From the NCBI GenBank assembly GCA_003970805.2, contig CP051152.1, positions 806,001-870,000 on the forward strand: a stretch of DNA of 64,000 bases, in the 5' to 3' direction. The notes under the pieces were generated by a model that was not told the origin of the DNA, did no database searches, and was given only the letters and a program-made list of their open reading frames with translations. Below are positions 877 through 3,066 of this stretch, in pieces (positions within the stretch are counted from its first letter, which is position 1; each line of letters starts with the position of its first letter). The stretch comes from Undibacterium piscinae (GTDB lineage: Bacteria > Pseudomonadota > Gammaproteobacteria > Burkholderiales > Burkholderiaceae_D). The position numbers were made by a program, and so were the translations under genes.

Positions 877-3066
877 ATGAAATCTGGAATGAGTATGCCC
901 TTAGTTCGACCACTAGTTGCCTTATTGGCGGCATTGCCACTCGCGTTTGGTGTGGCTTATGCGGAAGACAAAAAAGAAGATAAAACGCATGGTTCTGCAG
1001 AGCTGAAATATCAGGCTGGCGGCTCACCTTTAGCCACTCAGGCCATGCATCAAAATATCAATCCCAAAGCACCTCCTATGACGAAAGAGGAATTTGAGCT
1101 TGGTAAGCAAATTTATTTCCAACGCTGCGCCGGTTGCCATGGCGTATTGCGCAAAGGTGCGACAGGTAAAGCATTAACGCCAGATATCACACTCGACAAA
1201 GGCACCGATTACCTGAAAGTGTTCATCAACTACGGCTCACCAGCTGGTATGCCTAACTGGGGTACATCTGGAGAGTTGAGCGACAAAGAAGTCGATCTGA
1301 TGGCGCGCTATATTCAGCAAGAACCACCAGTACCGCCAGAATTTAGTCTCAAAGACATGCTGGCGACCTGGAAAGAGGTGATTCCTGTTGCCAAGCGCCC
1401 AAGCAAGAAAATGAATAGCTACAACATCGCTAACATTTTCTCCACTACCTTGCGCGATTCCGGCGAAGTGGCTCTGATCGATGGCGACACCAAGAAAATT
1501 ATCAACATCGTCAAGACTGGCTATGCGGTACATATCTCCCGCACGTCCGCTTCCGGTCGCTACTTGTTCGTCATTGGTCGCGATGCACGTATCAACTTGA
1601 TCGATTTGTGGATGGAAAAACCAGATACAGTCGCTGAAATGAAGGTCGGTCTGGAAGCGCGCTCTATCGAAACCTCCAAGTTTAAAGGTTTTGAAGATAA
1701 ATACGCGATCGCTGGTGATTACTGGCCACCACAATTTGTCATCATGGAAGGCGATACACTCAAGCCTTTGAAAATCGTTTCTACACGCGGCATGACGGTT
1801 GACAATGAATACCATCCTGAACCACGGGTAGCGTCTATCGTTGCCTCCCACTACCGTCCAGAGTTCGTGGTCAATGCCAAAGAAACAGGCAAGATCATGT
1901 TGGTTGACTATAAAGACATCAACAACCTGAAAATGACGACATTGGATGCTGCCAAGTTCTTGCATGACGGCGGTCTCGATTCTACCGGCCGTTACTTCCT
2001 GGTCGCTGCCAACGCATCCAATAAGATTGCGGTGGTCGATACCAAAGAAGACAAGATGGCAGCGATTGTTGATGTCGGCAAAACACCACACCCAGGTCGT
2101 GGCGCCAACTTCATCCATCCTAAATTTGGTCCTGTATGGGCAACCAGCCATTTGGGTGATGAAACTATCTCCATGATCGGTACTGATCCAATCAAGCACA
2201 AAGCTCAGGCGTGGAAAGTGGTCGATACCGTCAAAGGTCAAGGCGGCGGTTCTTTGTTTATCAAAACACATCCAAAATCGAAAAACTTGTGGGTTGATAC
2301 GCCTTTGAATCCAGATGCAAAAATGAGCCAATCAGTTGCGGTATTTGATATCGAACATTTGGATAAAGGCTTTACCGTACTACCAATCGCCGAATGGGCA
2401 AACTTGGGCGAAGGCGCAAAACGTATCGTTCAGCCTGAGTACAACAAAGCTGGTGATGAAGTCTGGTTCTCGGTCTGGAGCGCTAAAGACAAAGAATCCG
2501 CTATCGTTGTCGTGGATGATAAAACTCGCAAGTTGAAAGCTGTGATCAAAGATCCTAAATTGATCACACCAACCGGCAAGCACAACGACATATGCAACAT
2601 TGCCAGCATGGTGCAGAATTGGCGACAAAGAAACGATTTGCATATGAAAACTTGCAAATATGCCCCAACGCCAGGAAGTAAATGCGAAACTCAACGCCAG
2701 CAAACTCGCGGTCAAAGCTTCCGCCAGGCGCCAACCGAAGATACCGCAGATCGCCAACACCACACTTCCGCTCACCCATGTACCGAGCAACCAATAGGGC
2801 CGCCAGGACACATAAGGCTTAATCACGCCGCTACTAAAAAATGGCAGCATGCGATGGCAGACAGTCAGAAATATCGGCAACAGGAAACAGAAGAACGCCA
2901 ACTGTCGCGCCACTATCCACGCCGGGCCCAAGCCCGCGCTCCAGACCAAGGCGGCAATCAATGCCAACACCCCACCTATCATTGCACCAAGCAAGACCAA
3001 GGGATGAACTTTATCCGCCACCGCACTCTGCCGCACCAGACCAGCCCAGCGCCAGGTAGCGCTTAA
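877..3066 (+). CDS. nirS: Cytochrome cd1 nitrite reductase NirS, 3' end replaced
   Basis: Periplasmic nitrite reductase that reduces nitrite to nitric oxide. The ATG at 877 has a good ribosome site (AAGGGG) and is followed by a signal peptide ending near AYA. The heme c site CAGCH lies near residue 85, and the eight-bladed propeller carries typical NirS text ([41 protein letters not shown]). Homology stops at TPTGK near 2580. NirS proteins normally finish with about eleven more residues, roughly FNVYNTQHDVY. Here the frame runs on for about 160 residues through the antisense of nnrS, so the native C-terminus is missing. No heme d1 biosynthesis genes follow. Function after the change is doubtful. 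See the junction finding. Confidence 0.9.

Follow-up and report, generated by a model that had tools for sequence, protein, structure and literature searches.

A chimeric assembly seam as the very probable origin of the nirS/nnrS junction in a single-contig Undibacterium genome

Genes at the nirS/nnrS junction

The window analysed here is a 64,000-nucleotide stretch (C1:806001–870000) of G000, an Undibacterium genome assembled as a single contig of 4,186,344 bp. The genome is 97.39% complete and 0.74% contaminated and its sequence at C1:606001–890000 is free of Ns, and standard assembly figures do not flag it as mixed. The reference for comparison is another single-contig Undibacterium genome, G015. 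In window coordinates, the features that bear on the junction are as follows.

1–2586, no strand assigned: right end of a G015-identical block (99.92% identity to G015), with a small ssb-like gene and nirS
880–2580, plus strand: nirS (cytochrome cd1), truncated by 11 residues at its C-terminus, from Pfam Cytochrom_D1 and Cytochrome_CBB3 matches and comparison of C-termini
2571–2660, no strand assigned: garbled seam consisting of the nirS end, a 14-base nnrS piece, a 22-base nirM piece and degraded nnrS, from exact matches, alignments and controls
2581–3066, plus strand: 161 residues added to the nirS frame, apparently spurious and antisense to nnrS, from the overlap with nnrS on the other strand
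2587–64000, no strand assigned: rest of the window, assigned to a diverged population, colinear with G015 and 69–86% identical to it in matches of at least 400 bp
2608–2629, plus strand: 22-base exact match to nirM, corresponding to G015 positions 4732818–4732839
2630–3411, minus strand: nnrS assigned to the second (diverged) population, without its 3' third, from a Pfam NnrS match to positions 4–250 of 371

The nirS frame runs on the plus strand from 823 to 3066 and encodes 747 amino acids, with the motif TPTGK at 2566–2580 followed by 161 residues. Its NirS portion of 567 amino acids is 100% identical to NirS of G015 and matches both the c-type heme domain (PF13442/PF00034) and the d1 domain (PF02239) in Pfam. 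The conserved NirS C-terminus (FN..NTQ.D.Y in relatives, of the FNINNTQHDVY type) is absent and has been replaced. The original prediction, that NirS lacks about 11 C-terminal residues, was borne out: TPTGK ends at 2580 here and is followed by exactly 11 residues in 19 of the 20 other nirS loci examined, the motif not being found in the remaining locus (G056). In the 12 other Undibacterium loci examined, a count that leaves out the fragmented nirS of G008, the usual 11-residue end is followed by an ORF for a c-type cytochrome, which begins 7–11 nt downstream of nirS in 11 loci and 225 nt downstream in one. In G015, G027 and G033, the 11-residue end is present and the cytochrome gene lies 10 nt downstream; compared with these nirS–nirM pairs, the window lacks nirM except for the 22-base piece and lacks the ends of both nirS and nnrS.

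The 161-residue tail gave no match to any Pfam family at E ≤ 1, and we rejected its assignment to a known domain on these grounds. Because it is antisense nnrS without a Pfam match, the part added to NirS is not the known domain family expected of a natural fusion.

On the minus strand, the frame at 2380–3411 starts as NnrS. Its match to PF05940 covers positions 4–250 of 371, so that the protein is not full-length and, as originally predicted, about a third of it is missing. The truncations of nirS and nnrS are thus genuinely present in the assembled sequence. Up to residue 262, the protein is 69% identical to NnrS of G015 and 75% identical to NnrS of G006. A separate full-length NnrS is encoded in G000 at C1:2987640–2988755. 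Beside nnrS, at 3408–5382, lie a DGC-domain gene and genes for UbiT and UbiV, proteins of anaerobic ubiquinone synthesis, in a stretch that is colinear in G015.

Elsewhere in the window, two copies of a two-ORF element (33526–34889 and 39418–40781) are absent at the same places in G015; the element is presumably an insertion sequence, and the protein ends shown are identical in both copies. At 25617–25753, two genes that adjoin each other in G000 are separated in G015 by a 226-aa ORF, aquaporin-like by eye; both genes have the same lengths in the two genomes, and this looks like an ordinary gene-content difference.

Change of parent genome and composition of the seam

Identity to G015 drops abruptly at 2586/2587, from 99.987% to 69–86%. 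The block that ends at 2586 corresponds to C1:785233–808586; it is 23,354 bp long, and its three difference columns all lie within 300 bp of the block ends. Beyond it, at C1:809001–890000, none of 67,095 aligned bases falls in a match of at least 95% to G015. The first 2.6 kb of the window appears to come from a different population than the remaining 61 kb.

The original prediction placed the junction on a 12-bp sequence common to both genes. Identity to nirS stops at 2580–2586, and nnrS homology on the plus strand extends as far as about 2587 and, at a weak level, to about 2568–2571. At the latter point nnrS of G006 has AACCAGGCA versus AACCGGCA in nirS, so the proposed identity was not confirmed. 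Nor does the other strand encode LPVG there, as had been read: the open minus-strand frame encodes LAGW at those bases. In relatives with intact nirS this frame is likewise present opposite the gene, with stops in some of them.

The order of elements across the seam is nirS, an nnrS piece, a nirM piece and nnrS again. The first of the two pieces, at 2587–2600, is a 14-base exact match to nnrS of G015. The second matches G015 nirM, a gene for a c-type cytochrome (Pfam Cytochrom_C match) that follows nirS; this 22-base piece sits within the nnrS remnant, with nnrS similarity returning 3' of it, and it may derive from the nirM of either population. A nirM piece lying inside nnrS, so that the order fits the two neighbouring genes simultaneously, points to a consensus taken over two different sequences. 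A clean deletion or crossover would not yield such an arrangement. Even with up to three mismatches allowed, the seam pattern was present in only one of 43 genomes of the genus, its own, and was absent from the 42 others.

Genes that normally lie between nirS and nnrS had been supposed in the original prediction, and comparison with G015 indeed found two: the order there is nirS, nirM (115 aa), a 421-aa ORF and, on the minus strand, the gene for a 386-aa NnrS. About 2.5 kb of this interval (2,462 bases) is missing at the seam. When 2,220 of these 2,462 bases were searched against G000 at DNA level, 23 short matches, the longest of 158 bp, and no copy were found, and we therefore rejected relocation of the missing genes elsewhere in G000. 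A plasmid search returned six records at 67–72% identity and was uninformative.

Recurrence of block edges across about 699 kb

Over C1:477116–1176250, about 699 kb of the 4,186-kb contig, G000 was compared with the sequence of G015 that is colinear with it, in a first stretch (C1:477116–892813) and a second (C1:892815–1176250). Counts of blocks and gaps exclude matches shorter than 400 bp, matches on the minus strand and matches starting at C1:932000–952500, where multiple places were matched. Of the chained aligned bases, 154,497 of 376,981 in the first stretch and 50,447 of 240,393 in the second lie in matches of at least 95% to G015; one of these near-identical matches extends over 24,919 bp without any difference. 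The remaining, diverged matches have a median identity of 77.6%. Further long blocks of 99.4–100% identity to G015 against a background of about 78% were seen at C1:601063–644434, C1:645910–695255 and C1:1102354–1127272, and reads are needed before their gene content is assigned to a single species.

Transitions between the two kinds of sequence are associated with loss. At least 800 bp of colinear G015 sequence is lost at 30 of 34 transitions, as opposed to 30 of 137 other adjacent gaps. The figures are 18 of 22 versus 13 of 77 in the first stretch (Fisher p 3e-8) and 12 of 12 versus 17 of 60 in the second (p 3e-6), neighbouring gaps not being strictly independent in these tests. First-stretch transitions with losses of this size have a median loss of about 1.4 kb, and the other four of the 22 lose less than 800 bp. 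At 21 of the 22, the block end cuts genes of G015, which is weak evidence in a densely coding genome.

Thirteen of 19 near-identical blocks have no interior differences. In ten of these the differences (1–162 columns) are confined to the 300 bp next to a block end; the other three have none at all. The remaining six of the 19 blocks carry 15 to 273 interior difference columns, which indicates that some blocks derive from a strain not exactly that of G015.

Exact pieces of at least 16 bp from the corresponding G015 interval were found in 10 of 22 transition gaps (4,384 bases) versus 8 of 67 other gaps (28,676 bases), the latter containing over six times more sequence; a control with mismatched pairs gave 0 of 462. 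The longest pieces measure 90, 90, 68 and 44 bp, one of the 90-base pieces adjoining a tRNA-like stretch, and 12 of the 22 transition gaps are without a piece of this length. The diverged alignments, too, contain exact runs of at least 22 bases, in 554 of their 2,003 windows (200 columns each), so a short piece alone cannot identify its parent population.

A possible second seam lies at about 11902 of the window, where both sides are of the diverged class. Here G015 has 1,293 bp more than G000 and there is no gap in G000; an ORF judged moaA-like by eye has 302 aa from a TTG start versus 337 aa in G015, and a 402-aa ORF of G015 is mostly missing in G000.

Origin of the junction

We regard it as very probable, from the sequence comparisons above, that the nirS/nnrS junction is a chimeric assembly seam and not a gene fusion. 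The G000 contig would alternate between sequence of a G015-like Undibacterium and sequence of another member of the genus, about 78% identical to the first. At about 2571–2660 the assembly would pass from the first population, in nirS and heading into nirM, to the 3' part of the convergent nnrS of the second, with about 2.5 kb lost at the join and the consensus there representing a mixture. We infer that a single data set contained reads of both populations and that the seam arose when a consensus was built over this mixture. The change of parent, the missing sequence, the interleaving of pieces and the recurrence at other seams were each calculated directly, as was the finding that none of the 42 other genomes of the genus has this seam. 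An assembly join, specifically one at a short repeat, was among the original proposals; the join itself is strongly supported, as one between two populations through a garbled consensus instead of a clean join at a repeat.

An alternative source of such a pattern is real and very recent recombination, in which a G015-like donor supplied many long tracts, and nirM and both gene ends were removed at nirS/nnrS by illegitimate joining with templated insertions. The junction does sit in a single-contig assembly, gene order is colinear on both sides of it, and 99.99% identity over 23 kb fits a very recent transfer. This explanation, however, requires 34 block edges in about 699 kb between genomes that share only about 78% identity, and the loss of at least 0.8 kb at 30 of these edges. 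It also has to accommodate the clustering of differences at the ends of 10 of the 19 blocks, whose interiors are free of them, the cutting of G015 genes at 21 of 22 first-stretch transitions (a weak point, the genome being densely coding) and the nirM piece embedded in the nnrS remnant. A further objection comes from a 19-kb region of G000 outside the 699 kb, which was compared as well: it carries two Cytochrom_D1 matches and is of the diverged kind (77–87% identity to G015), and a native nirS is therefore expected in the diverged population. Under the chimeric account, and given these Cytochrom_D1 genes elsewhere, the nirS native to the diverged population has probably been displaced during assembly. 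Taken together, we consider the recombination account very unlikely, and the chance is correspondingly slim that G000 is a real mosaic produced by very recent exchange of many tracts, some reaching 25 kb or longer, with a species at about 78% identity. Were the mosaic real, the process would be one that usually deletes 1–2 kb at tract edges, and one such edge would have made a NirS with a new tail.

The microhomology-mediated deletion originally proposed, within one strain between convergent nirS and nnrS and giving a cytochrome cd1 with a 161-residue tail, is scarcely credible: the short similarity of the gene ends (AACCAGGCA and AACCGGCA), the truncation of both genes and the G015 order nirS–nirM–orf–nnrS speak for it, but with 99.99% identity to one colinear reference on the left and 69–86% on the right the two sides do not look like the sequence of one strain, and a simple deletion leaves no nirM piece inside nnrS. 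The different parents of the two sides and the nirM piece likewise led us to reject a natural deletion at a shared 12-bp sequence. Because the two sides of the assembly join have different parents, we do not expect any organism to carry the foreign-tailed cytochrome cd1; what stands of the predicted 160-residue foreign tail is an in-frame extension of 161 residues, antisense to nnrS.

If the junction is a chimeric seam, G000 appears to mix two populations although it is a single contig with good values for completeness and contamination. The finding serves mainly as a warning: the genome should be handled as mixed, and fusions, losses and "transfers" inferred from it need checking against reads. 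In the literature searched, papers naming at least three of nirS, nirM, nnrS and Undibacterium appeared unrelated, and the titles and abstract openings searched contained no description of a recurrent, loss-prone seam pattern. Chimeric contigs in metagenome assemblies, including long-read ones, are the closest counterpart that we can offer: as treated in the myloasm preprint (PMC12424758), they likewise stitch together segments of two genomes. Compared with the contigs described there, the seams of G000 recur every few kb to tens of kb, and the contig alternates between two colinear relatives, usually losing about 1–2 kb at each change.
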